From: Demequina silvatica
GTDB taxonomy: Bacteria > Actinomycetota > Actinomycetes > Actinomycetales > Demequinaceae
Assembly (NCBI RefSeq): GCF_000971215.1
Contig: NZ_BBMA01000004.1
Location: 62,001-126,000 of the forward strand
Reading direction: 5' to 3'
Length of the DNA stretch: 64,000 nucleotides
Under the pieces are notes generated by a model. That model saw only the letters and a list, made by a program, of their open reading frames with translations. It was not told the origin of the DNA and did no database searches. The position numbers and the translations under genes were made by a program. Shown here one piece after another: positions 35,805-49,109 of the stretch (position 1 is its first letter; each line of letters starts with the position of its first letter).

Positions 35805-36532
35805 ACGCCGCGCGCGCCCGGGCGCTCGGCGCCGAGCTGCTCGGCACCGCCCTGCTGGTCACCGTCGTGGTGGGCTCCGGCATCGCCGCCGCGGCGCTCT
35901 CGCCAGAGGACGTGGGCCTCCAGCTCCTGGAGAACGCGATCGCGACGGCGCTCGGTCTCACGGTGCTCATCCTCATGTTCGGCCCGGTGTCGGGCGCGCA
36001 CTTCAACCCGGTGGTGTCGCTGGCCGACTGGTTCCTGGGGCGCCGCACCGGTCACGGGCTGTCGCTCGGGGAGGCGGGCGCGTACTCCGCGGCGCAGGTT
36101 GCGGGCGGCATCGCGGGCGCGATCCTCGCGAACCTCATGTTCGACGTGCCCACCGCGCTGTCGACCACCGACAGGGCCACGGGCCCCCACCTGCTCGCGG
36201 AGGTGGTGGCGACGTCGGGCCTGGTGCTCATCATCTTCGCGCTCGCCCGCTCGGGCCGCGGCGCGCTCGCCGCGCCCGCCGTGGGCGCGTACATCGGCGC
36301 CGCGTACTGGTTCACCAGCTCGACGTCCTTCGCGAACCCGGCTGTCACCATCGGCCGCGTGTTCTCCGACACGTTCGCCGGCATCGCGCCGTCCTCGGTC
36401 GCGCCGTTCGTCGGGGCGCAGCTGGTGGGGCTCGTCGTCGGCGTATCCCTGGTGCTCGCGTTCTACCCGCGCGCGGGCGAGTCCGCCGACGCCGTGGTGG
36501 TGCCCCACGGGGAGGCCGCCGGCGCGCGCTGA
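35801..36532 (+). CDS. Aquaporin-family channel in ars cluster (AqpS-like)
   Basis: 243 residues, six membrane segments and two half-helices with HFNPVVSL (NPV) and SFANPAVTIGRVF (NPA). The protein is in the MIP family; in ars operons such channels let trivalent metalloids or methylated arsenicals leave the cell. GTG start overlaps the arsR stop. No arsenate reductase or ArsB/Acr3 pump is adjacent. Confidence 0.88.
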   Translation: MNAARARALGAELLGTALLVTVVVGSGIAAAALSPEDVGLQLLENAIATALGLTVLILMFGPVSGAHFNPVVSLADWFLGRRTGHGLSLGEAGAYSAAQVAGGIAGAILANLMFDVPTALSTTDRATGPHLLAEVVATSGLVLIIFALARSGRGALAAPAVGAYIGAAYWFTSSTSFANPAVTIGRVFSDTFAGIAPSSVAPFVGAQLVGLVVGVSLVLAFYPRAGESADAVVVPHGEAAGAR

Positions 36533-36552
36533 CCCGGCCCGCGCATCGTCCC
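36527..36552 (-). repeat. 26-bp segment identical to 6329-6354, stop-linked repeat
   Basis: The 26 bases across the aquaporin stop codon and beyond are identical to those across the MFS stop codon at 6329-6354, including the TGA and a GGACGATGCG-complement copy at 36542-36551. Confidence 0.9.
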
Positions 36553-36557
36553 GCGCG

Positions 36558-37652
36558 CTACCGCCCTCGCAGGTGCTCGCGCAGGTAGGGCAGCGCGAAG
36601 TCCACCTGCCCGCGTCCCACCTGCTCGATCACGCCCGCGTCGAGGAGGCGCCGGCGGTAGGTGTCCGCGTTCTGACGCGACATGCCGGTCCGGGCGCCCA
36701 GGTCGACCATGCGCGACGGGCCGTCGTCGCGGGCCATGGCGCGCAGCATCTCGAGGTCGCGCGGCGACAGGTCCGCGAGGGCCGTCTCCGTCACGAGCGT
36801 GCCGAGCCGTTCGCGCGCCGCCTCGACGCCGGCCGTCACATCCGCGAGGGTGATCGCGTCGCCCGTGGCAGCGCGCCACACGTGGAAGCCCACCAGCTGG
36901 ATGAGGAACGGGTAGCCGTGGGTCGCCTCCGCCGCGGCGCGGGCGGCGTCGGGGGCGATGGTGCGTCCGTTGTCGGTGACGGTCTGGACCAGGGCGTCGT
37001 GGACCTCGTCGACGGAGACGTCGGCGAGCACGTGCTTATCGGCGCGCCGCAGGAAGGTCAGGACGCGGCCCTGCGCGTCGGAGCGCAGCAGGTCGGAGAC
37101 CGCGGACGGCAGCCCCGCCATGACGATCGCGAACTCGCGGTTCTCGCGCACCAGGTGCTGCGTGATGAGGGCGAGCTCGCGCAGGTCGTCGGACCGGGCG
37201 TGGACCTCGTCCACCGTGATCAGCAGCCCGGTCCCGTCAGCCTCCAGCGTGTCCAGCAGGCGGCCGATCCGGTGGCGCACCCCCTCCGCGAGCTGCGGCG
37301 TGAGCTCGGTGTCGATGCTCCCGAGCGCGCCGATCGACACGCCCGTGACGCGGCGTCTGGCTCGTGGGCTGACGCCCTCCAGCAGGCGGTCGACCGCCTC
37401 GCCGATGCGCGCGAGCATCCCAGGGGAGGCGGACTCGTCGATGACGAGCCACCCGTGGGACATCGCGCGGTCGCCCGACTCGGTCAGCATGACGGTCTTA
37501 CCGGTGCCGCGCGCGCCGGTGAAGATCGTGATGCGCGCGGGGTGGCCCGGTCCCGACTGGATGCCCTCGTCGACCTCGGCGAGGAGCGCGTCGCGGCCCA
37601 CCAGCAGGGGAGGGACCGCGCCCGCCGTGGGCTTGAACGGGTTGACCGTCAT
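36558..37652 (-). CDS. Orphan AAA+ ATPase with C-terminal winged helix
   Basis: 364 residues. Walker A FTGARGTGKT (~50), Walker B LLITVDEVHA (~155), a sensor region and a winged-helix end (GMSRQNADTYRRRLLDAGV) give an ORC1/Cdc6-like or STAND-like regulator architecture. It starts at ATG 37652 after AAGGAGG. No obvious partner is adjacent. The upstream region has the direct repeats TTGGTAC x2 at 10-bp spacing. A role in DNA binding or stress sensing is inferred only. Confidence 0.8.
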   Translation of the reverse strand: MTVNPFKPTAGAVPPLLVGRDALLAEVDEGIQSGPGHPARITIFTGARGTGKTVMLTESGDRAMSHGWLVIDESASPGMLARIGEAVDRLLEGVSPRARRRVTGVSIGALGSIDTELTPQLAEGVRHRIGRLLDTLEADGTGLLITVDEVHARSDDLRELALITQHLVRENREFAIVMAGLPSAVSDLLRSDAQGRVLTFLRRADKHVLADVSVDEVHDALVQTVTDNGRTIAPDAARAAAEATHGYPFLIQLVGFHVWRAATGDAITLADVTAGVEAARERLGTLVTETALADLSPRDLEMLRAMARDDGPSRMVDLGARTGMSRQNADTYRRRLLDAGVIEQVGRGQVDFALPYLREHLRGR

Positions 37653-37672
37653 CAGTGCCTCCTTGGGACGCT

Positions 37673-37689
37673 TTGGTACATCTTGGTAC
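37673..37689. promoter_or_regulatory. Tandem TTGGTAC repeats before the AAA+ ATPase gene
   Basis: TTGGTAC at 37673-37679 and 37683-37689, ten bases apart, so on one face of the helix; ~20 bp upstream of the leftward ATG. It may be the ATPase's own binding site. Confidence 0.55.
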
Positions 37690-37712
37690 TTTCGCACGGG
37701 GGTGCGACAGCG

Positions 37713-37722
37713 GGACGATGCG
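37713..37722 (+). repeat. 10-mer, intergenic after lipoprotein gene
   Basis: 9 bp beyond the lipoprotein stop codon. Confidence 0.95.
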
Positions 37723-37731
37723 CCGCGCGGG

Positions 37732-38307
37732 TCAGGCGCCGAGGACGCAGCTGTCGTAGGCGTAGGTGGAGGCGTCGAGGTGAAGGCGCGCGTGGCCGGC
37801 GTACTCGAGCGCGGTGTCGAGGCTGTCGGAGGCGAGCGTCAGCGTCGCCCACCCCACGATGCGCTGCGGGTGCGACTCGAGCGACGGGAACGTGTTCGCC
37901 GTCACCTCCCAGGCGTCGATCGCGGCCGTGACCTGGTCCCACCGCTCCGCGGGCGTCTCCCAGCTGCCGCCGAGCACATCGGCCTCCACGCACGGGTTCA
38001 CCGCCGGGTCGTGCACCAGTCCCGGCTCGCCGCCGTATCCGGGGAGCAGGCCGACCGGTGAGGATCCCGCGATCTCGCCGTCGCCGTCGCCGTCCCCGTA
38101 GAGCGGGCCGTCGACGCCGGTGATGAGGTTCCGGGCGGCCTCGGCGTTGGCGTGGGCCTCCTCGATCGAGGCGGCGTCCTCCCATCCGGCGAGCGCGGTC
38201 TCGAGCTGATCGAAGCGCTCGGCCACCTCGGGCGGCATGTCCGTGGAGGCGGCGGGGGAGCATGCGGCGAGGGCCAGCAGGGGGATCGCCAGCAGGGCTC
38301 GTCGCAT
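37732..38307 (-). CDS. Putative lipoprotein of unknown function
   Basis: 191 residues. Signal with lipobox LLALAAC (Cys16). Mature part is acidic, with a GDGDGDGE stretch that could bind calcium, and two Cys (VNPCVEAD, DSCVLG) which could form a disulfide. The start ATG 38307 has TAGGGT 7 bp before it, so probably leaderless. No family recognised. Confidence 0.72.
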   Translation of the reverse strand: MRRALLAIPLLALAACSPAASTDMPPEVAERFDQLETALAGWEDAASIEEAHANAEAARNLITGVDGPLYGDGDGDGEIAGSSPVGLLPGYGGEPGLVHDPAVNPCVEADVLGGSWETPAERWDQVTAAIDAWEVTANTFPSLESHPQRIVGWATLTLASDSLDTALEYAGHARLHLDASTYAYDSCVLGA

Positions 38308-38317
38308 GGGCCTCACC

Positions 38318-38971
38318 CTACCGAGCGGGCACGTCGACCACGCGGCCATCCCCGGTCCGTGGGACGACGGCGCCGGCCGTGAGGGCGGCGACGTCCGCGT
38401 CCAGGGCCGCGACATCCGCCGGTGCCACCCAGACGGTGAGCGTCGCGAAGGCGCCGTAGGCGGGGGAGTCCAGCACCGCATCGTGCCCCTCGACCCACTG
38501 GTGGAGGAACGCGAGCACGCGGCCCGCGTCGGCGTGCGGGACGTCCAGCAGGACCTGGGTGCGGACGGTGCGGCGCACCATCGGCGCCCGATCGAGAGTA
38601 TCGGCGACCGCGCTCCCGTACGCGCGCACCAGGCCGCCGGCGCCGAGCTTGACGCCGCCGAACCAGCGGCTCACCACGGCGACCACGTCGGTGACGTCGC
38701 GGCGGCGCAGCACCTCGAGCATCGGGACACCCGCGGTACCGGCGGGCTCGCCGTCGTCGTTCGAGCGCTGACGGTCCGCGTGGGCGCCTACGACAAGCGC
38801 CGTGCAGTGGTGGCGCGCATCCCAGCGCTGCTTGCGGATCCGCGCGATGACGGCGTCCGCCTCCTCCATGGTCGCGACCGGCGCGAGGTGGGTGAGGAAG
38901 ATCGACCGCTTGATCTCGAGCGTGTGCTCGACGGGCTCCGCGATGGTGCTCGGGAGGTCGCTGGCGGTCAC
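38318..38971 (-). CDS. YigZ/IMPACT-family protein
   Basis: 217 residues. GEPAGTAGVPMLEVLR and VSRWFGGVKLGAGGLVRAY are the hallmark of the IMPACT/YigZ family, which acts in translation control or ribosome-associated quality roles. GTG start with TACCCT 6 bp upstream, so leaderless. Downstream lipoprotein promoter overlaps its 3' end. Confidence 0.9.
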   Translation of the reverse strand: MTASDLPSTIAEPVEHTLEIKRSIFLTHLAPVATMEEADAVIARIRKQRWDARHHCTALVVGAHADRQRSNDDGEPAGTAGVPMLEVLRRRDVTDVVAVVSRWFGGVKLGAGGLVRAYGSAVADTLDRAPMVRRTVRTQVLLDVPHADAGRVLAFLHQWVEGHDAVLDSPAYGAFATLTVWVAPADVAALDADVAALTAGAVVPRTGDGRVVDVPAR

Positions 38972-38993
38972 GGGGGCAGGGTAGCGCGGCCCC

Positions 38994-39701
38994 TCACGCA
39001 GCGTCGCGCAGCCGCTCCTCGACCACGGTCAGCGCCGCGGACAGGGCCGCGGCCGCGGGGGTCGCTGTGTCATCGTGAGGGCTGCGCCACCGCGCGGCGA
39101 CCTCGATCTGGAGACCCGCAAGGCCCAGCTGGCGCTGCGCCAGGCTGGTCACTGTGTAGTGGGGGCGCGCGTTGAACGGCGCGTTGACGGCGACGTCGAA
39201 GGGCTCGAGCTCGGCGCGCAGGATCTCGACGGCGAGCGCCTCGAGCGGCCCGGGGCGCGGACCGGTACCCAGGCAGAAGTCCGGGCCGTGGTGGTCGCCC
39301 ATGCCGTGGATGTCGATGAGCATGCGGGCGGGCTCGCGGAGGTCGCGCAGGTGGCGGGCGAACTCGTCGTCACGCTCGTCCCAGGTGTCCCACTCGGCGC
39401 GGGCGCCCGCGGACACGACGGTGGAGACGTTCGCGACCTCGCCTGCGAGCAGCGTGAGTGAGCCCGTGTGGAGGTCCGCGGCCTTCATCGCTCCGGCGCG
39501 GTAGTGCCGCGTGCCGTGCGGTGCGGTCAGCACCACGGCGCTGCCGCGATCCGTGACCAGGGCAGGGTCGCCCTGCTCGACACGCTTGCGTGCGCGCTTG
39601 CGGGCCTTGCCGAACCGCGCGTCGAGCTCGCGCCAGCGGGTGGACAGGTCGATCACGTCGGCCGCGGTCGGCTCTTTCTCGGTGTCGAGTCCAGGGGTCA
39701 T
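38994..39701 (-). CDS. N-formylglutamate amidohydrolase-like protein
   Basis: 235 residues. TAPHGTRHYR, IDIHGMGD and a C-terminal segment of the zinc amidohydrolase fold match the N-formylglutamate deformylase (HutG-like) family distantly. Metal ligands His and Asp are present in the first two. No histidine degradation genes are near, so it may be a cell-wall or phage-like amidase relative. GGAGG lies 11 bp upstream. Confidence 0.65.
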   Translation of the reverse strand: MTPGLDTEKEPTAADVIDLSTRWRELDARFGKARKRARKRVEQGDPALVTDRGSAVVLTAPHGTRHYRAGAMKAADLHTGSLTLLAGEVANVSTVVSAGARAEWDTWDERDDEFARHLRDLREPARMLIDIHGMGDHHGPDFCLGTGPRPGPLEALAVEILRAELEPFDVAVNAPFNARPHYTVTSLAQRQLGLAGLQIEVAARWRSPHDDTATPAAAALSAALTVVEERLRDAA

Positions 39702-39820
39702 CGCAGGGTCCTCCAGCCTTCTCAGGGTGGTGTGCGCGGTGCGCCGGTGGGACGAGACTACCGGGTGCTCGCGCGGCGCGGCTGCGGGCGCGCCGGGGGA
39801 GAGGGTGCCACCATGGGCGC

Positions 39821-40072
39821 ATGACCAGGCAGAACACTGTCACCGTGCGGTGGGGTTGGATGCTGGTCGCGCTCGGGATCGCAGCGCTCGGCGCCGTGGT
39901 GTTCGGGTTCGCGTCCGTTCAGAGCTGCGCGTCCGGCGGCTCTTGCTCCGGTGGATCGGTGGTCGACGTCGTGCAGACGGCGGTGATCGCGATCGCGACG
40001 CTGGGCGGTGTGGCGTGGGCGGTGCGGCGGGGGATCAGGCCAGCGCGAACGCGATCGCAAGGGCAGGCGTGA
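39821..40072 (+). CDS. Small membrane protein, unknown function
   Basis: 83 residues with two predicted membrane helices (MLVALGIAALGAVVFGFA and a C-terminal one) and a Cys-Ser-Gly loop (SCASGGSCSGG). No family recognised. Its 3' end overlaps the convergent DUF1304 gene by 38 bp. Confidence 0.55.
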   Translation: MTRQNTVTVRWGWMLVALGIAALGAVVFGFASVQSCASGGSCSGGSVVDVVQTAVIAIATLGGVAWAVRRGIRPARTRSQGQA

Positions 40073-40412
40073 GCGCCTGACCGATCGCGCTGGTGAGCAG
40101 GCGACGTTCCGTGACCCACAGCCAGAACCCGAGGAACACCTGCGCGGCGCACAACGCGATCACGATCGCCGTGCCGCCCGCGACGTTGCCCGAGAGGTGC
40201 ACCATGCAGAGGCCCACGACGATGCCGATGGCGGTGGTGATGTTGTAGGCGCCGATGTTCATGGCCCACATCCGCACCGCGGGGACGTCCTCGAGTGCGA
40301 TGAGCAGGATGCGATGGAAGCGCTGGTCGCCGTGGCGGAGGATCTCGATGAGCCCGACGACGATGAGAGCCAGCGCCGTGGCGCCGGCGAAGACCTGGCT
40401 GAGCACGCTCAT
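40035..40412 (-). CDS. DUF1304-family membrane protein
   Basis: 125 residues, four membrane helices. MNIGAYNITTAIGIVVG recalls the NQGLYNG core of DUF1304 proteins, whose function is unknown. ATG with GGGAGG upstream (at ~6 bp). Lies between two small-gene neighbours in the accessory part. Confidence 0.75.
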   Translation of the reverse strand: MSVLSQVFAGATALALIVVGLIEILRHGDQRFHRILLIALEDVPAVRMWAMNIGAYNITTAIGIVVGLCMVHLSGNVAGGTAIVIALCAAQVFLGFWLWVTERRLLTSAIGQALTPALAIAFALA

Positions 40413-40523
40413 GCCGCCTCCCGTCCGATGCACCAGGTGGGTGGGTCGCCCTTCGAGGCTACGCCGATGCAGCCGATTCGCGTGCGCGATCGCGTCGCGG
40501 GGACTGGTCGAGGACGACCGTGC

Positions 40524-40554
40524 GTCATACCATCATTCATATGACTGATATGAC
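40524..40554. promoter_or_regulatory. Antitoxin operator overlapping a leaderless start
   Basis: GTCATA (40524-40529) faces TATGAC (40540-40545), with a third half-site TATGAC at 40549-40554. The -10-like TACCAT (40528-40533) is inside. The ATG 40541 lies in the operator itself. Confidence 0.65.
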
Positions 40555-40780
40555 GACCATCAAGGTCCGTCGCTCGACACGGGCGCGTGTCAGCGAGTTG
40601 GCGGGGGAGCGCGGAGTCACGCAATCGGAGCTCCTCGACCAGCTGCTCGACCATGAGGCCGAGCGTGAGTTCTGGGTGGGCCTTTCGAGGTTGACGCCCG
40701 AGGCATACAGGGCGGCTCTCGCCGAGGACGACGACCACGTGGACATGGGATTCGGACTCGAGGATTCGCCGACGCGATGA
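40541..40780 (+). CDS. Ribbon-helix-helix antitoxin
   Basis: 79 residues. An N-terminal RHH DNA-binding segment (TTIKVRRSTRARVSELAGERG) and a C-terminal toxin-binding tail fit type II antitoxins. ATG 40541 chosen with TACCAT 7 bp before it (leaderless); GTG 40520 is possible but lies in the operator. It overlaps the MazF-like toxin gene by 4 bp (ATGA). Confidence 0.84.
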   Translation: MTDMTTIKVRRSTRARVSELAGERGVTQSELLDQLLDHEAEREFWVGLSRLTPEAYRAALAEDDDHVDMGFGLEDSPTR

Positions 40781-41106
40781 CCGGTGAGCTGTCGATCGCG
40801 CGCGGAGACATCGTCTGGGCATCGATGGATCCCACCAAGGGTCGGGAGCAGGCGAAGGACCGTCCGCACCTGGTGCTGTCCGTGCCTGCCCTGCACGACG
40901 CGACGGAGATGGTGATCGCAGTGCCTCTCACGACGGCGATGCGGCCGTGGCCAACTCGCGTCCGCGTGACGGAGCGCTCGTTCGCGATCTGCGAGCAGCC
41001 GCGGACGCTGTCATTCGCACGGATCCGCAAGGTGGAGGCGGGTGCAGCGCCGCCGGAGGTCGCCGACGAGGTCGCGCGCGTGGTCGCGCGCCTCATCGGG
41101 TTCTGA
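40777..41106 (+). CDS. MazF/PemK-family endoribonuclease toxin
   Basis: 109 residues, usual for MazF. The N-terminal RGDIVWASMDPTKGREQAKDR loop with Arg and the AVPLTTAMRPWP and ICEQPRTLSFARI segments match the family, which cuts mRNA at short motifs. Toxicity is held by the RHH protein encoded just upstream. The pair lies in a lower-GC, gene-poor stretch, a sign of mobility. Confidence 0.88.
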   Translation: MTGELSIARGDIVWASMDPTKGREQAKDRPHLVLSVPALHDATEMVIAVPLTTAMRPWPTRVRVTERSFAICEQPRTLSFARIRKVEAGAAPPEVADEVARVVARLIGF

Positions 41107-41150
41107 GCGGCAGGGAGGCCCCTTCCCGGTCGCTCCGCACCTGTAATGTC

Positions 41151-41164
41151 ATAATGCGCATTAT
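41151..41164. promoter_or_regulatory. 14-bp palindrome ATAATGCGCATTAT
   Basis: Perfect dyad downstream of the toxin gene with no divergent regulator next to it. The shape is like operators of HTH antitoxins; it might be the remnant of a second toxin-antitoxin promoter. Confidence 0.55.
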
Positions 41165-41182
41165 CGGCGCTCTATCAACCGT

Positions 41183-41192
41183 GGACGATGCG
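41183..41192 (+). repeat. 10-mer, intergenic after toxin gene
   Basis: 18 bp after the ATAATGCGCATTAT palindrome. Confidence 0.95.
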
Positions 41193-41291
41193 CGTGTCGG
41201 GATGGCTGTCGGCCGGCGCCTCAGTAGGTTTCAACCATCCCTCGCTGAGGACGCGACCACGCAGTAAGGCGCGTCTCGCTATCGGAAGGCG

Positions 41292-41633
41292 GTGCACCAC
41301 GTGGCAAGCCGTCTTACGTGGGTCTTGATCGCAGCCGGCGTCTTCACGCTTGGAGCGGGCGCGTCCGCCACGTGGTGGGCCGCGAATCCGCATCGCGGGC
41401 ACGTCGATTTCGTGGTGTCAGATGAATCCTCCGACAGCGCCACCTTGTGGATCTCCACCCAGACATGTGGTGGCGGACCCGAGGTCACCGTGCACGAGAC
41501 GGACACCACGGTCGAGCTCGCAGTTGCCGCCTGGCACGGCGGATGGGGCGATCGACTGGCGTGCAGTGACGCGGTGCGGGTCGAGCTCGAGGACGTCCTC
41601 GGCAACCGCGTCATCGTCGACGCCGGTGGCTGA
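41292..41633 (+). CDS. Putative secreted or membrane-anchored small protein
   Basis: 113 residues, one N-terminal membrane helix (RLTWVLIAAGVFTLGAG) followed by an extracytoplasmic domain with two Cys (TQTCGGG and LACSD) that may pair. No family recognised. GTG 41292 or GTG 41301 could be the start; GGAAGG lies upstream. Confidence 0.6.
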   Translation: MHHVASRLTWVLIAAGVFTLGAGASATWWAANPHRGHVDFVVSDESSDSATLWISTQTCGGGPEVTVHETDTTVELAVAAWHGGWGDRLACSDAVRVELEDVLGNRVIVDAGG

Positions 41634-41645
41634 CCGACCTGGCCG

Positions 41646-41879
41646 CTAGGAAGCCCGTCCGCGCTCAACTCGCATCGTGCGGTCCGGCGCGAACTCGATG
41701 TCGTCATCGGCGGTCAATTGGCGCGCCAGCGAGCGGCCGCGTGCCACGAAGTGCTCGTACCTCGACAGCACATACGCGGGTCGGCCTCGGTCTGTGATGA
41801 CCACGGGACCGGCGACGTCGGCGGCACGCAGAGCCGCCGACGGATCCCGTCGGAAGTCGCGCGCGTCGATCGGCGTCAC
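41646..41879 (-). CDS. Orphan Phd/YefM-family antitoxin
   Basis: 77 residues. DARDFRRDPSAALRAAD and VVITDRGRPAYVLSRYE is the Phd/YefM pattern. A toxin gene (Doc or YoeB) would be expected downstream, but the region 41633-41106 holds only other genes, so it is an orphan. GTG start with GGAGGGAGG. It may work as a plain repressor or antidote to a remote toxin. Confidence 0.8.
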   Translation of the reverse strand: MTPIDARDFRRDPSAALRAADVAGPVVITDRGRPAYVLSRYEHFVARGRSLARQLTADDDIEFAPDRTMRVERGRAS

Positions 41880-41960
41880 AGGCCCCTCCCTCCGCGAGCT
41901 CTGGCCGCCTCCACGCTACGTCACCGCGTGGCTGAGCGCGCCCAGGCGTTCGGTGCTTCC

Positions 41961-42418
41961 ATGGGAAAGGTGCGTTTCGACCTGGAGACCACCGCGACGC
42001 CCGCGCAGGCGCTCGGCGCCCTCACGGACTTCACGGCGCGCCGTGAAGTCCGGAGATCTGGTCGAGCTCGCTCAGCCCCAAGACGTTCGAGGTGCGCGGC
42101 CAGGGCGCGCACTGGGCCGAGGCGCTCGAGAGCACTCCCGGCTCCCCTTTCTGGATAGTCTCCCGCTACGACTGGTCGGATCCCACCACCGTCCGGTGGG
42201 TGGTGACCGAGTGCAGCTACGGTGGCGGCGGCGCCGGCTTCGCGCACATCTCCCCTGGTAAAAATGGCGGGAGCCGCATGCACGTCGAGTGGACTCTCGA
42301 CGACCCGACCCGTCAGAAGGCGCTGCTGTGGCTCTACCGGCACGCGCCCATGCGGCCGCTCATCCGCAGGCTCTGGGTCTCCGCGCTCGACCGCTACGCG
42401 GCCGAGAACGCCGCATAG
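41961..42418 (+). pseudogene. SRPBCC-family protein gene with +5 frameshift in a palindrome
   Basis: Frame one encodes MGKVRFDLETTATPAQALGAL...TDFTARR up to ~42045, then the frame that fits the family (PEIWSSSLSPKTFEV...WIVSRYDWSDP) continues from ~42050 to 42418. Removing GAAGT between them restores one open frame of about 150 residues. Such domains bind hydrophobic ligands (polyketide cyclase/START-like). The extra bases are one half of a perfect 28-bp palindrome. If the sequence is correct, the gene is inactive. Confidence 0.75.
42025..42052. repeat. Perfect 28-bp palindrome at the frameshift
   Basis: Bases 42025-42052 read the same on both strands; the dyad centre is between 42038 and 42039. 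Without 5 bases it would be a 10-bp core palindrome CGGCGCGCCG with unequal flanks, the typical precursor of template-switch insertion. Confidence 0.9.
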
Positions 42419-42424
42419 CGCCCC

Positions 42425-42922
42425 TCAGTCCGGCAGCGTGTCGCCCAGGACGCGGCCGAGCGCCTTGAGACCGCCGAGCAGCTCGGCGCGCTCGCCCTCG
42501 CTCAGCCCCGCGAGGATCCGCGTCTCGTTATCCGCGTGCGCGGCGTGTGCGGCCTCGTGGGCCGCGCGGCCCGTCACGGTGAGCCGCACGCGCACCACCC
42601 GGCGGTCGTCCTCATCGCGTCGACGTGTGACGAACCCTCGCGACTCGAGCCGCTGCACGCGGTGCGTGGTGGTGCCCGACGTGATGAGCAGCGCGCGGTC
42701 CAGCTCGCCGGGCGTCAGCTCGTACGGATCGCCGGCGCGTCTCAGCGCCGACAGCACATCGAACTCCCAGCTCTGCAGCCCGTGCTCCGCGAACACCGCG
42801 TCCAGCCTCGCCTGCACCAGGTCCGCGTACCGCGACAACCGACCGATCACCGCCAGCGCGCTCACGTCCAGGTCGGGACGCTCCCTCTCCCACTCGCCGA
42901 GGATCCGATCCAGCGTGTCCAT
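42425..42922 (-). CDS. MarR-family regulator of the EamA transporter
   Basis: 165 residues. Winged helix with TPGELDRALLITSGTTTHRVQRLESRGF-like HTH (~72-100) and wing RRDEDDRRVVRVRL. Divergent from the EamA gene (72 bp). Two MarR-type dyads lie in the gap, so it probably represses itself and the transporter. Start at ATG 42922; ligand unknown. Confidence 0.86.
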   Translation of the reverse strand: MDTLDRILGEWERERPDLDVSALAVIGRLSRYADLVQARLDAVFAEHGLQSWEFDVLSALRRAGDPYELTPGELDRALLITSGTTTHRVQRLESRGFVTRRRDEDDRRVVRVRLTVTGRAAHEAAHAAHADNETRILAGLSEGERAELLGGLKALGRVLGDTLPD

Positions 42923-42944
42923 GCGCCCATCTTGCCAGCGGAAT

Positions 42945-42985
42945 ATCTTGACGTCGAGATTTGTCTGATATCTTGATATCAAGAT
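42945..42985. promoter_or_regulatory. Two MarR boxes, ATCTTGA-type
   Basis: A perfect 16-bp palindrome ATCTTGATATCAAGAT (42970-42985) and an imperfect copy ATCTTGACGTCGAGAT (42945-42960), centres 25 bp apart, in the MarR/EamA divergent gap. Confidence 0.75.
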
Positions 42986-42994
42986 GTTTGGACC

Positions 42995-43909
42995 GTGCTC
43001 ATGAATCCCACCCGTACCCTCGCCCTCACGGCGCTCGCCCCGATCACCTGGGGAACCTCCTACCTGGTCACCACGGAGCTGCTCCCCGCAGATCGACCGC
43101 TGCTCACCGCGACGCTGCGCGCCCTGCCCGCCGGGCTCATCCTGCTCGCCATCACCCGGGTCCTCCCCCGCGGTGCATGGTGGTGGAAGGCCGCGATCCT
43201 CGGCACGCTCAACATCGGCGCGTTCTTCGCGCTGATGTTCGTCGCCGCCTACCGCCTCCCGGGCGGGGTGGCCGCGACGCTCGCCGCCGTCCACCCGTTG
43301 CTCGTCACCATGCTCGCCTCGCGCACGCTCGGCGAGCGCGTCGCTCCCCTGGCGCGCGCCGCCGCGGGCGCGGGAGTGGTGGGCGTCGCTCTCCTGGTGC
43401 TCACGCCCGGCGCACGCCTCGACGCGTGGGGCGTCGTTGCAGGCCTCGGTTCCGCCGCCGCGACCGCCGCGGGGGTGCTCCTCACCAAGCGGTGGGGCCG
43501 CCCTGTCCCGATCCTCGCGTTCACCGGCTGGCAGCTGCTCGCGGGAGGCCTGGTGCTGCTGGTCCCGATGCTCCTCATCGAGGGCGCCCCGCCGCACCTC
43601 ACCACCGCGAACGTCCTCGGCTACGCCTGGCTCGCCGTCCCCGGCACCGCGCTCGCCTATCTCGCCTGGTTCTCCGGCGTCCTGCGGCTTCCGGCCAGCC
43701 GCGTGAGCCTGCTCAGCTTCCTCACCCCGCTCACCGCGGGCGCGCTCGGATGGGCGGTCCTCGGCCAGTCCCTCGCGCCGCTTCAGCTCGCCGGGGGCGC
43801 CCTCATCCTCGTCGCCGTAGGCGCGGGCGCGTACGCGGGCCGGCCCGCGCATCGTCCCCCCGCACCGGTACCCGCGGACACCTCCGCACGGGAGCTGGTG
43901 AACGCCTGA
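42995..43909 (+). CDS. EamA/DMT-family transporter
   Basis: 304 residues, about ten membrane segments with two EamA halves (TWGTSYLVTTELLPADRP and GVLLTKRWGRP starts). The group exports amino acids or metabolites. GTG 42995 lies 6 bp after GATGTT and could be leaderless; the ATG at 43001 is two codons later. Likely controlled by the divergent MarR protein. Confidence 0.84.
   Translation: MLMNPTRTLALTALAPITWGTSYLVTTELLPADRPLLTATLRALPAGLILLAITRVLPRGAWWWKAAILGTLNIGAFFALMFVAAYRLPGGVAATLAAVHPLLVTMLASRTLGERVAPLARAAAGAGVVGVALLVLTPGARLDAWGVVAGLGSAAATAAGVLLTKRWGRPVPILAFTGWQLLAGGLVLLVPMLLIEGAPPHLTTANVLGYAWLAVPGTALAYLAWFSGVLRLPASRVSLLSFLTPLTAGALGWAVLGQSLAPLQLAGGALILVAVGAGAYAGRPAHRPPAPVPADTSARELVNA
43848..43857 (-). 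repeat. 10-mer, in EamA gene
   Basis: Read as PAHRPP; the long form CGGCCCGCGCATCGTCCC is shared with 6344 and 36542. Confidence 0.95.
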
Positions 43910-43925
43910 TTTCCGGCAGGAACCA

Positions 43926-43951
43926 GGAACAACTCAGGCGCTACGCTCGTT
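43926..43951 (+). promoter_or_regulatory. Sigma-R-like promoter of rbpA (GGAAC-N18-GTT)
   Basis: GGAAC at 43926-43930, 18 bases, then GTT at 43949-43951. This matches the thiol-stress ECF sigma (SigR/SigH) consensus known to drive rbpA in Streptomyces. Confidence 0.65.
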
Positions 43952-43993
43952 ATGTCCCAGTGCAGGCGCCCGCCTGCCGGAAGGAGGACGCCC

Positions 43994-44326
43994 ATGGCCG
44001 ATCGCGCGCTTCGAGGAATGCGACTGGGGACCCAGTCGATGGAATCGATCCACAACGCCGAGCTCGCCGAGCGCGTCGAGGTGCACTACGACTGCCCCAA
44101 CGGTCACGTGCTCGCGATGCCGTTCTCGGTCGAGGCCGACGTCCCCCTCTCGTGGGAATGCCACTGCGGAGCCCTCGCGCTCCTGCGGGACGGCGACCGC
44201 CCCGAGCCCAAGGACGTCAAGCCGCAGCGCACCCACTGGGACATGCTGCTCGAGCGTCGGACCATCCCCGAGCTGGAGGAGCTGCTGGAGGAGCGTCTCG
44301 AGCTGCTCCGCGCCAGCCGCCGCTAG
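43994..44326 (+). CDS. rbpA: RNA polymerase-binding protein RbpA
   Basis: 110 residues. YDCPNGHVLAMPF and ECHCG form the core fold, RLGTQSMES at the N-terminus and the C-terminal helix with RRTIPELEELLEERL bind RNA polymerase and the housekeeping sigma. It stabilises the promoter complex in actinobacteria. ATG 43994 after AAGGAGG. Followed by an intrinsic terminator. Confidence 0.96.
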   Translation: MADRALRGMRLGTQSMESIHNAELAERVEVHYDCPNGHVLAMPFSVEADVPLSWECHCGALALLRDGDRPEPKDVKPQRTHWDMLLERRTIPELEELLEERLELLRASRR

Positions 44327-44337
44327 AGCTCGAACGG

Positions 44338-44375
44338 AAGGCACCCTCGCCACGACGGCGGGGGTGCCTTTCTCA
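44338..44375 (+). terminator. Intrinsic terminator after rbpA
   Basis: 14-bp stem (44338-44351 with 44357-44370, one T-G pair), 5-base loop, then a T-rich run. It separates rbpA from the convergent mannosyltransferase gene. Confidence 0.9.
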
Positions 44376-45119
44376 TGCCCGCGTGCGTCCGGGGAGCAGC
44401 TGAGCGACCTGACGCAGCCGGTGCGCGACGCCCCAGGCCGTCACCTTGACCAGGGCCTCACGGATGATCGCGCCGCTCATCTTCGAGGTGCCGGCCTCGC
44501 GCTCGACGAACGTGATGGGCACCTCGACCACCGTCCCTCCCGCACGGATCACGCGCCACGCCATGTCGACCTGGAAGCAGTAGCCCTGCGACTCGACGTC
44601 GGCCAGCGCGAGGCGCCGCAGCATCGAGGCGCGGTAGACGCGGAACCCGGCCGTCGCATCGTGCACCCCGATCCCCAGCGCGAGCCTCACGTACGTGTTC
44701 GCCCCGGTCGACAGCACCAGCCGGTGGCGTGGCCAGTTGACCACCTCTCCCCCGGGCACCCAGCGCGACCCGATCACCAGGTCGGCGGACGATGCGCGGG
44801 CGAGCAGGGCGGGAAGGTCGGCTCCGCGGTGGGAACCGTCCGCGTCCATCTCGCACAGGAGGTCGTAGCCGCGTTCGAGGCCCCATGCGAAGCCCGCGAG
44901 GTACGCGGCTCCCAGGCCGTTCTTGGCGGTGCGGCGCAGCAGGTGGACCCGCGGGTCCCGCTCCGTGCGGGCCTGCGCCCAGTCGCCGGTGCCGTCGGGC
45001 GAGCCGTCGTCGACCACCAGGACGTCGACGTCGGGAGCGGCGGCGTGCACGGCGTCGAGCTGGCGCGGCAGCGACTCCCGCTCGTTGTAGGTCGGGATGA
45101 TGACGAGCGTCCGGGTCAC
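44373..45119 (-). CDS. Polyprenol-phosphate mannosyltransferase (Ppm1-like GT2)
   Basis: 248 residues. GT-A start [20 protein letters not shown] and MDADGSH (DxD) with the later IGSRWVPGG match dolichol-phosphate mannose synthases; there is no C-terminal membrane domain. It makes polyprenyl-phosphomannose for cell-wall glycans or lipoglycans. GTG start overlaps lnt by 4 bp. Confidence 0.92.
44787..44796 (+). repeat. 10-mer, in mannosyltransferase gene
   Basis: Coding strand reads RASSAD. Confidence 0.95.
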
Positions 45120-46648
45120 CAGTCGTACCTCTCGGCGACCCGGCGGCGCACCGCGAGCAGCGCCACCACGGTGGGGACGATGAGGAACGCCCAGCCGATG
45201 AACCAGCCCAGGCGCACCGCGGGGGTGATGTCGCTGCGGAGGCCGACGCGCTCGACCAGGTGGTCGGCGGTGAACAGCTCGGCGCCGTCGATCACGCGGC
45301 CGGCGGGGTCGATGACCGCGCTCACGCCCACGGTGGAGATCTGGATGGCCCAGCGGCCCGACTCGATCGCGCGCATGCGGGTCATCTGGAGCTGCTGCGT
45401 GCTCTCGGCGGTGTGACCGAACGAGGCGTTGTTGGTGGGGACGATGATGAGCTCGGCGCCCTTGGCGACGGCCTCGCGCACGATCGAGTCGTAGGCGACC
45501 TCGAAGCAGATGGGCGTCGCGACGGGGACGGTGCGGTCGAGCGAGGCGACCGGCACGTTCATCACCGCCGCGCCGGTGCCGGGGAGCATGTCCGTGACGT
45601 CGTCGACGATGGGCGCCACCTCGCGCGCGAGGCTGCGCAGCGGGACGTACTCCGCGAACGGCGCCGGCCGCTGCTTGGAGTAGGTGTCGAGGATGGCGCC
45701 GTTGCCGCCGAACAGCAGCATCGTGTTGTAGCGGCCCTCGGGCGGCGTGTAGTCGACCGTGCCGAGGAGCAGCGGCGCGCCGGTCGCGGCCTGCGCCTCC
45801 TCGACGGCGGCGAGCGTCTGGGAGTCGACACGCGGGTCGATGTCGGCCGCGTTCTCGGGCCACACGACCAGGTCGACGGGGTTGTCCGCCGTCTCCTCCG
45901 CCATGCGGAGGGTCTCGGCGAGGTGGTTCTCCGTCACCAGACGTGCCTGGGAAAACGCCTCGAGGCCCAGGTCCGGGACGTTGCCCTGGACCGCACCCAC
46001 GCGCATGGTGCCCTCCTGGGCCTCGTTGTCGATCGGGATGAGGTAGCCGGCGCCCAGGACCGCGATCGCCAGGACGGGCGCGAAGGCTGCCGTGAGGGCG
46101 CGGCGCGTGCGTGCGCACTCCCACGCGAGACCCAGCAGCGCTCCCGCGAGCACCACGGCGAAGGACACGAGCGGCACGCCGCCCAGCCACGCGAGACGCG
46201 CGACGGGCGCGTCGACCAGCGCGTAGCCCACGCGCCCCCACGGGAAGCCTCCGAACGGCACCATGCCGCGCAGCTGCTCCGCCGCGACCCAGAGGCCGGC
46301 GAACACGACCGTCTCGGCCCAGCGGTGGGCGTCGAGGATCCCGGAGCGGCGCACGTGCGCCCACGCGACCGCGATCAGGGCCCACGCGAGGCCCTCCGCG
46401 ACGCTGAGCGCCACCCAGGGGATGGGCCCCACGGCCACGTCCGCCCACCACAGGTGCGGGAGCATGAACGCGACGCCGTATGCCCAGCCGGTGAGGAAGG
46501 CCGCGCGCGCGGTGGCCACCTCGAGCGACCACCACAGCAGCGCCACGGAGACCGGGGCGAGGAACCACCAGCCGGTGTCGGGGAACGCGAGGTTGAGCCC
46601 GACCCCGCCGAGGATCGCGATCGCGAGGTTCCTCAGTCCGGTCAGCAC
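45116..46648 (-). CDS. lnt: Apolipoprotein N-acyltransferase
   Basis: 510 residues. About seven N-terminal membrane helices, then a CN-hydrolase domain with Glu in VVWPENAAD, Lys in [10 protein letters not shown] and Cys in [10 protein letters not shown]. It adds the third acyl chain to lipoproteins. In mycobacteria this protein is joined to Ppm1; here they are separate but overlap. GTG start with TACAGT 6 bp before it suggests leaderless transcription. Confidence 0.94.
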
Positions 46649-46697
46649 CCCGCAACTGTATGCGAGCCGCGGGGGCCCGCCGTGCAGGCGCTCCGCG

Positions 46698-49109
46698 CTA
46701 CGGGCGTGCCGTCACCTCCAGCGCGATGGTGACGGGCGCGAGCCCCTCGGAGGTCACGGTGACGGTCGCGGGGCCCGTGCCGGCGGGACGGACCACGGCG
46801 AGCGCGCGGCCGTCGAACGTCCGCCACGTGGGGGCGGCGAAGCGCTCCTCGGTGCGAGGGTTCGCGCTGCACATGCCCGCCAGGGCCGCGGCGCCGTCGA
46901 TGGAGACGGTGACGTCACGGTCGGCGTCCGTCACCAGGACGCCCGCAGCGTCGCGCAGCTCGATCGCGACGTACGCGAGGTCGGCGTCGGTGTCCACCAG
47001 CGCGGTCCGGTCGGCCGTCGCGGTCAGGGTCGCCTCGCCGGCCGTCGCGAGGCTGGCGCGACCGGTCTCGACGCCGCCTCGGTACGCGATCGCGACGAGC
47101 GTGCCGGGCCGGTAGGTGGTCTCCAGCACCGCGAGCATCGGACGCTCCTCCCCCACCGTCGCGCGGGCGACCTCGTCGCCGTCGAGCATGAGTGCGACCT
47201 CGTCGGCGTCGGCGTACACCTCCACCGTGGCGGGCCGGCCCTCGAAGCCGTGCCACGTCCACGAGGCGACCGAGTCGCTCCACGCCCACATGGACGGATT
47301 GACGATCTCGACTCCGTGGCGGTCGGGGCGGCGCACCGCGATGTACGGCTCGCTGCGCAGCCCGAACACGATCTCGCGGTAGTAGGACAGCGGCCGGCGC
47401 GCGCCCGTGATGTCGAGGTCCGCGCACCAGGCGGTGAGGTAGGGGAACTCGCGCTCGAGCTTGCCCGAGGCCTGATCGTCGCCCGCGTACATGGTGGAGC
47501 CGATGCCGACCTCGCCCAGGTAGTCCCAGCCCGTCCACGTGAAGTCGCCGATGACGTTGGGGCTGTCGAGCACGAGCGGCCAGAGGCGCCCGATCTCGGG
47601 CCCGAAGGTCTCCGACCCCACCACCACGCGGTGCGGATAGGCATCGCGATCCGCGGCGTAGCGGGACTCGGCGTAGTTGAGGCCCAGCACGTCGAGCACG
47701 GCCGAAGACTCCTCGATGCGGGCGGTCGCGGTGTCGGTGGCGCCCACGGTCGCCATGGCGTTCCTGTCCGCCATCAGGGCGTTGAGTCCGCCGAGCTGCT
47801 CGACGATCCGCGGCATCTCGTCGATGACCGCGAGGAGCGCGTTCACGCCGTTGGTGACCGGCCGCGTCGGGTCGAGCGAGCGGACCTTGTCCGCGAGGCG
47901 CCGCGCCCAGCGTGCGCCGTGGGGAGTGCCGACCTCGACGATCTCGTTGCCGATCGAGTACATGATCACGCTCGGGTGGTTGCGGTCCTTGGCGACGAGC
48001 GCCTCGAGGTCGGCCTCCCACCACACGGGGAAGTCTGCCGCGTAGTCGTAGGGCGTCTTGAAGCGGGTCCACATGTCGAAGGCCTCGTCCATGACGAGCA
48101 TGCCGAGCCGGTCGCACGCGTCGAGCATCGCCGGGGACAGCGGGTTGTGCGCGGCGCGGATCGCGTTGAAGCCCGCGTCCTTGAGCAGCTCGATGCGGCG
48201 CTCCTCGGCGCGGCCGACCGCGGCGGCACCCAGGGGGCCGTTGTCGTGGTGGATGCAGGCGCCCCGGAGCTTCACCGGCTCCCCGTTGATCCGCAGGCCC
48301 TTGCGCGGGTCGACCGTGACGGTGCGGATGCCGAACGTCGTGACGACGGGCTCGGACTCATCGAGCTCGACCGATGCGGTGTGCAGGCGCGGGCTGTCGG
48401 GGCCCCACAGCGCGGGGTCCGCGATGTAGAACAGCTGGCGGGCGTCGGCCTGCTCGCCCGGGGCGAGCGTCACCCGGGTGACGTCGGACTCGACGGTGAC
48501 CCCCGCATCGTCCCTGATCACAGTTCCGACGCGGACGGTGCGTGTGACGCGCTCGTCGTTGCGGACGGTGGTGACCACCTCCACGACGGCCTGGTCCTCC
48601 TCGATGCGCTCCGTGCGAATGCGGATGCCGTCCTCGAGGATCCGGACGGGCTCGTCCACGTGGAGCAGCACCGGCCGGTGGAGGCCCGCGCCGGAGTACC
48701 ACCGCGAGTCCTCGCCGGAGCGCACCTCGATGCGGAGGCGGTTCGGCTCGCCGTGCCGCAGGTAGGGCGTGAGGTCCGCGAAGAATCGGGCGTAGCCGTC
48801 CGCGCGCACTCCCGCGAGCTCGTCGTTGAGGAAGATCTGCGCGCGGCGGAACGCGCCCTGCACCTCGAGCCGCACCGACCGGCCGTGCCACTCCTCGGGC
48901 ACGTCGAGGGCGCGCTCGTAGGTGTAGGCGCCGTTCGGGTAGTAGGCCGCGGCGCCCTTGGCGGGGACGTCGGGGCGGCGCTGCTCGTCGCGCAGGGCGT
49001 CGTGCGGCAGGCGCACGGTGCCGAGCACCTCGGGCCCGCCGGACACCGCGGCGAACGGGCCGGAGGGGCGGCGGTAGGTCCACGCGTCGTTGAGAGGAAC
49101 GATGGTCAT
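46698..49109 (-). CDS. Family 2 glycoside hydrolase (beta-galactosidase/glucuronidase type)
   Basis: 803 residues in the GH2 order: sugar-binding, immunoglobulin-like, TIM barrel with acid/base Glu389 in YSIGNEIVE and nucleophile Glu500 in VGSETFGPE, then a C-terminal DUF4982-like and Big-like part (SWTWHGFEG onward). No signal peptide, so intracellular. Substrate may be galactosides or glucuronides. ATG 49109 with AGAAGGA; the TetR gene ends 32 bp upstream, same strand. Confidence 0.9.
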   Translation of the reverse strand: MTIVPLNDAWTYRRPSGPFAAVSGGPEVLGTVRLPHDALRDEQRRPDVPAKGAAAYYPNGAYTYERALDVPEEWHGRSVRLEVQGAFRRAQIFLNDELAGVRADGYARFFADLTPYLRHGEPNRLRIEVRSGEDSRWYSGAGLHRPVLLHVDEPVRILEDGIRIRTERIEEDQAVVEVVTTVRNDERVTRTVRVGTVIRDDAGVTVESDVTRVTLAPGEQADARQLFYIADPALWGPDSPRLHTASVELDESEPVVTTFGIRTVTVDPRKGLRINGEPVKLRGACIHHDNGPLGAAAVGRAEERRIELLKDAGFNAIRAAHNPLSPAMLDACDRLGMLVMDEAFDMWTRFKTPYDYAADFPVWWEADLEALVAKDRNHPSVIMYSIGNEIVEVGTPHGARWARRLADKVRSLDPTRPVTNGVNALLAVIDEMPRIVEQLGGLNALMADRNAMATVGATDTATARIEESSAVLDVLGLNYAESRYAADRDAYPHRVVVGSETFGPEIGRLWPLVLDSPNVIGDFTWTGWDYLGEVGIGSTMYAGDDQASGKLEREFPYLTAWCADLDITGARRPLSYYREIVFGLRSEPYIAVRRPDRHGVEIVNPSMWAWSDSVASWTWHGFEGRPATVEVYADADEVALMLDGDEVARATVGEERPMLAVLETTYRPGTLVAIAYRGGVETGRASLATAGEATLTATADRTALVDTDADLAYVAIELRDAAGVLVTDADRDVTVSIDGAAALAGMCSANPRTEERFAAPTWRTFDGRALAVVRPAGTGPATVTVTSEGLAPVTIALEVTARP
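48504..48513 (-). repeat. 10-mer, in family 2 glycosidase gene
   Basis: Coding strand reads RDDAGV. Confidence 0.95.

Follow-up and report, generated by a model that had tools for sequence, protein, structure and literature searches.

We analysed a 64,000-nucleotide stretch of Demequina DNA (hereafter, the window) and conclude that an SRPBCC-like (Polyketide_cyc2-type) gene within it has very probably been inactivated, and recently, by a quasipalindrome-correction mutation; we put the probability of this reading at about 0.86. A palindrome at the break, five bases that the gene carries in excess of its homologues, and the exact complementarity of those bases to the facing arm are all seen directly. 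The five-base change is a clear yet unremarkable case of a familiar type of mutation and is of low general interest: it adds one more case to a textbook class and reveals no new mechanism. Its value is that it preserves, in the genome of a high-GC actinobacterium, a clean natural trace of quasipalindrome template switching in which the ancestral frame and the templating arm can both be identified, and it illustrates one route by which an accessory gene may become a pseudogene.

A reading frame interrupted at a perfect palindrome

The gene is read from the forward strand. Starting at the ATG at 41961, the first 28 codons (41961-42044) translate as MGKVRFDLETTATPAQALGALTDFTARR and form the N-terminal part of the protein; the same frame then yields unrelated residues until a stop codon at 42156-42158, giving a 65-residue product. 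The C-terminal part is found in a shifted frame, in which 121 codons plus TAG (42053-42418) translate as EIWSSSLSPKTFEVRGQGAHWAEAL... as far as the stop at 42416-42418. Homologues carry a match to the N-terminal part at their own N-termini, in one frame with their C-terminal half (best match, locus L005, E = 3e-11). Judged from the split frame, the gene has probably lost its function. Many putative bacterial pseudogenes have, however, been argued to be bona fide genes, in the part of PMC11017572 used here.

The frame changes exactly at a perfect 28-bp palindrome (CGGACTTCACGGCG/CGCCGTGAAGTCCG; 42025-42052, no strand assigned), the presence of which had been reported in the first-pass annotation and is confirmed by direct reading. 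Its 14-bp arms (42025-42038 and 42039-42052) are 100% complementary and are separated by no spacer. No other perfect palindrome with a zero-nucleotide spacer in the 355-kb contig is as long, the next two having 13-bp arms, and in each of 12 contig-length Markov controls the longest such arm was 10-13 bp. The eight zero-spacer palindromes of the contig with arms of at least 9 bp fall inside the range of the controls (3-14), and if spacers of up to 10 nt are allowed, the contig holds 17 palindromes with arms of at least 12 bp, the longest arm being 17 bp. The length of the palindrome is thus by itself only mildly unusual; what is significant is its position, together with the five bases described below.

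The label "SRPBCC-like" had been proposed from the sequence at first pass, and seems fair. Among five homologues scanned for PF10604 (Polyketide_cyc2), two exceed the cut-off of 27.4 bits (L026, 28.3; L011, 36.4), two match below it (L005, 24.3; L007, 21.0) and one (L012) has no match. Set beside the small proteins of the Polyketide_cyc2/SRPBCC group, homologues from the same class match the family, two of the five above the cut-off, whereas the window copy is split between two reading frames and gives no Pfam match with either half on its own; scans of both pieces against Pfam and NCBIfam returned no family. A PDB sequence search gave weak matches (best E = 0.47), and a scan of genome contigs with the C-terminal half gave 49 pattern matches but no relative. 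A plasmid search retrieved four records with relatives at <60% identity; in the one inspected, no annotated feature lay beneath the match.

Five bases in excess of the homologues

At E = 0.001 the C-terminal half matches in 2 of 44 genomes of the genus (its own included), in 2 of 47 of the family, in 9 of a sample of 396 from the order and in 13 of a sample of 394 from the class, as well as in one of nine genomes in the genus of G407; at E = 1e-15 it matches in 20 of 294 genomes drawn from the family of G752. The sample that we compared comprises 38 loci (L005-L042), and the genome draws behind them overlap.

BLAST places both halves in one frame at 32 of the 38 loci; its half-spacing did not settle the other six (L008, L018-L022). 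At 27 of the 32, exactly one residue separates an RR pair from the segment aligned to EIW. The five remaining values (0 for L009 and L017, -2 for L011 and L012, and -28 for L042) arise because the local alignments are gapped or extrapolated. The 23 closest loci outside the genus, with C-terminal halves at least 42% identical to the window gene (42-56%; L005, L013, L014 and L023-L042), have both halves in one frame without exception, and all of them save L042 have exactly one residue between the segments. The deviant value for L042 is due to the loss of ~29 residues further on. This locus (1456 onward), a second copy in G944, lost them in frame just after its DF-x7-W segment, and its spacing is kept.

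An alignment-free count led to the same spacing. The pattern D/N-F-x7-W/F, in which exactly seven codons (21 nt) part the F from the W/F, is present at about the expected position in 36 of the 38 loci; the pattern is permissive (L020 has two matches), and the two misses are a shortened record (L019) and a locus that itself contains stop codons (L022). These 36 loci have no extra length, and the nearest relative has lost the stretch by deletion. In the window, 26 nt lie between the F and W codons (42033-42058), as against 21 nt in the homologues, and 8 nt follow the RR codons where the homologues have 3 nt; the window gene therefore contains five extra bases. The proposal that a 5-base insertion breaks the frame, and that its removal restores one continuous protein, is accordingly upheld by the single-frame homologues.

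The extra, frame-shifting bases can be written as GAAGT (42045-42049) or, equally, as TGAAG (42044-42048). GAAGT is the exact reverse complement of ACTTC at 42028-42032 in the left arm, and TGAAG is that of CTTCA at 42029-42033. The first-pass annotation was thus correct in stating that the inserted bases copy the facing arm, but it needs a small adjustment: the CTTCA that it matched with GAAGT is the partner of the equivalent placement, TGAAG. Once the five bases are removed, there remains an imperfect dyad in which ACGGCG/CGCCGT and CGG/CCG pair (6+3 bp) around a 5-nt bulge formed by ACTTC, the putative template; their addition would have turned this presumed precursor into perfect 14-bp arms, in agreement with the earlier proposal. 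The ancestral sequence is reconstructed from homologues whose C-terminal halves are at most 56% identical, the nearest relative being deleted at this place, and should be regarded as probable.

A second broken copy in the genus

The only other copy among the 44 genomes of the genus is found in Demequina sp. SYSU T00192 (G010; L004, 1463-1776), and it is a pseudogene with three indels: one base is missing from the start codon, two bases have been added in the N-terminal half, and ~145 nt have been deleted between the equivalents of ~42037 and ~42181. The ends of this deletion were read by eye and are accurate to within a few bases; two aligners differ slightly in where they set the gap. At one of its ends the deletion comes very close, to a few bases, to the centre of the dyad (42038/42039), which, being a single case, is only suggestive.

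Over the aligned part, the C-terminal part is 83% identical to that of the sister. Thirty-nine of the 77 codons left in both copies differ, 27 without and 12 with a change of amino acid, and third codon positions account for 29 of the 43 base differences (dN 0.089, dS 0.80). These values suggest that selection probably acted on the gene over most of the period after the lineages split, and, given the low dN relative to dS, that both losses may well be recent and independent.

The sister copy bears on the possibility that the five bases are an assembly or library artefact, placed there by in vitro fold-back copying at the dyad or by mis-assembly. Inverted dyads cause problems when libraries are prepared, and the genome is a 17-contig draft. 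However, the site is internal to the 355-kb contig of a genome that is 99.97% complete, a fold-back event in vitro would be expected to touch a minority of the molecules and to be outvoted, and the independently broken sister copy makes a real loss of the gene credible. We therefore consider an artefact unlikely.

It might also be supposed that the dyad is a recurrent hotspot of mutation, at which the gene was broken independently in the two lineages, by perfection of the palindrome in the one and by the deletion in the other, and could still switch between a broken and an intact state in populations. We regard this as quite improbable. The phase-like variation that had earlier been named among the possible checks finds no support here. 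The 2-nt insertion in the sister (at the equivalent of 42008-42020) changes GGCGC-TCG-GCGCC to GGCGCTC-A-GAGCGCC and thereby lengthens a small hairpin. We considered it as a second template switch (GGCGCTCGGCGCC in the window, GGCGCTCAGAGCGCC in the sister), but duplication of an AG dinucleotide explains it equally well.

The surroundings of the two copies were also inspected. Upstream of the broken gene, the window contains what we take to be a Phd-like antitoxin ORF (41646-41879), seemingly partnerless there; in the sister, the Phd-like copy is followed by what is presumably a PIN-like toxin ORF. A separate pair further upstream (40520-41106) resembles, in our judgement, an antitoxin and a MazF-like toxin. 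Downstream, the interval 42425-43909, between the broken gene and a presumed RbpA-like gene at 43952, appears to encode a MarR-like regulator and an EamA-like transporter. In the sister, the RbpA-like gene directly follows the broken gene.

Probable copying from the facing arm

Under quasipalindrome correction, the event would have started from the imperfect dyad, with its ACGGCG/CGCCGT core, its outer CGG/CCG pairs and its unpaired ACTTC. Once the core had been copied, the nascent strand may have paired back on itself (as an ACGG-CGCG-CCGT hairpin) or on the other strand; extension of the paired strand with ACTTC as template would have added GAAGT, after which the growing strand would have rejoined its normal template at CCG. 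The outcome would be a perfect dyad and a lost reading frame. As it is the right arm that appears to have been rewritten from the left, fold-back of the nascent plus strand seems to fit best. The GC skew around the site is weak, too weak to name the leading or the lagging strand.

A different view would give the palindrome a function (operator, terminator or stimulator of programmed frameshifting) and have the gene expressed in two parts or by recoding. There is indeed a strong hairpin at the junction: folded as single-stranded DNA, 42005-42072 reaches -22.7 kcal/mol (z = -3.5), and one of 200 shuffles did equally well. The C-terminal half, moreover, stays open and shows the low dN/dS against the sister given above, and a GTG at 42092 might serve as the start codon of a piece of 108 residues. 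However, a search allowing up to three mismatches found the palindrome in one of the 44 genomes of the genus and in none of the other 43, and we therefore rejected the idea of an operator shared within the genus or of a dispersed repeat. Recoding is likewise at odds with the single-frame homologues, and Rfam, at gathering thresholds, has no match in 36000-48000. A programmed -1 ribosomal frameshift was rejected because no slippery heptamer is present at the frame change; between 41961 and ~42100 a single in-frame X-XXY-YYZ string occurs, at 41963, from which the -1 frame runs into a TGA at 42044. Taken together, we find a functional palindrome or recoding very unlikely.

Small indels are common and part of the dyad was presumably there beforehand, but it is hardly credible that the palindrome was completed by coincidence through an ordinary indel, be it slippage, a tandem duplication or a random insertion, because the five bases duplicate neither neighbour and simulated random insertions did not build such an arm. 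When 30,000 random 5-nt inserts were placed at random positions in the window (half of them GC-rich in composition, with spacers of up to 4 nt), the arm containing the insert reached at least 8 bp in 49 cases, at least 10 bp in three and at least 11 bp in none, compared with the 14 bp observed. At the actual site, simple arithmetic gives one random 5-mer in 1,024 that completes the dyad; with a partial dyad already in place, chance is thus less remote than the simulation suggests. The exact copy of the arm, the lack of duplication and the outcome of the simulation together support the original suggestion of template switching in a quasipalindrome.

Quasipalindrome correction is well described in E. 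coli. In the sections of PMC7202029 used here, the process begins with a stalled polymerase, uses the nascent strand as template and leaves the repeat perfect or closer to perfect; the reporters described there combine an 18-bp quasipalindrome with a 4-bp frameshift, and the mutations are reported to show a strand bias. The copying of one arm, by which an imperfect repeat becomes perfect, is common to our case and to the thyA hotspot, the lacZ QP5 and QP6 reporters and the Ripley model (PMC7202029), as are a small frameshifting indel in a coding sequence and short arms (PMC7202029). In contrast to the E. coli reporters, where reversion is measured, ours is a fixed difference in a natural genome; and here bases were added and the gene was broken, whereas the reporters lose bases and regain the gene.

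Both intrastrand and interstrand routes, and insertions into one half of a stem, are treated in the available part of PMC8794818. An insertion in one stem half that is templated by the other is a feature shared with rRNA and microRNA stems (PMC8794818) and with coding genes of yeast (PMC8604942), as far as these two sources were drawn on, and those cases, like ours, were deduced by comparing related sequences. The stems of PMC8794818 differ in that the RNA stem is kept, whereas ours is one event in a protein gene that was probably lost. None of the papers searched mentions both Demequina and template switching.

The local frequency of such events was estimated by comparison with 40 kb from the genome of the sister (29,911 aligned columns in ten BLAST segments, with the palindrome lying outside them). 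One of the 27 other indels of at least 4 nt lies inside an inverted repeat with arms of at least 8 bp, so nothing suggests that such events are generally enriched in the vicinity. This indel is an extra 8 nt in the sister (on contig C1 of G010, within the part that aligns with G000:C14:92209-100990) and sits in a hairpin with 16-bp arms and a 6-nt loop, perhaps as the product of a template switch or as part of a terminator.
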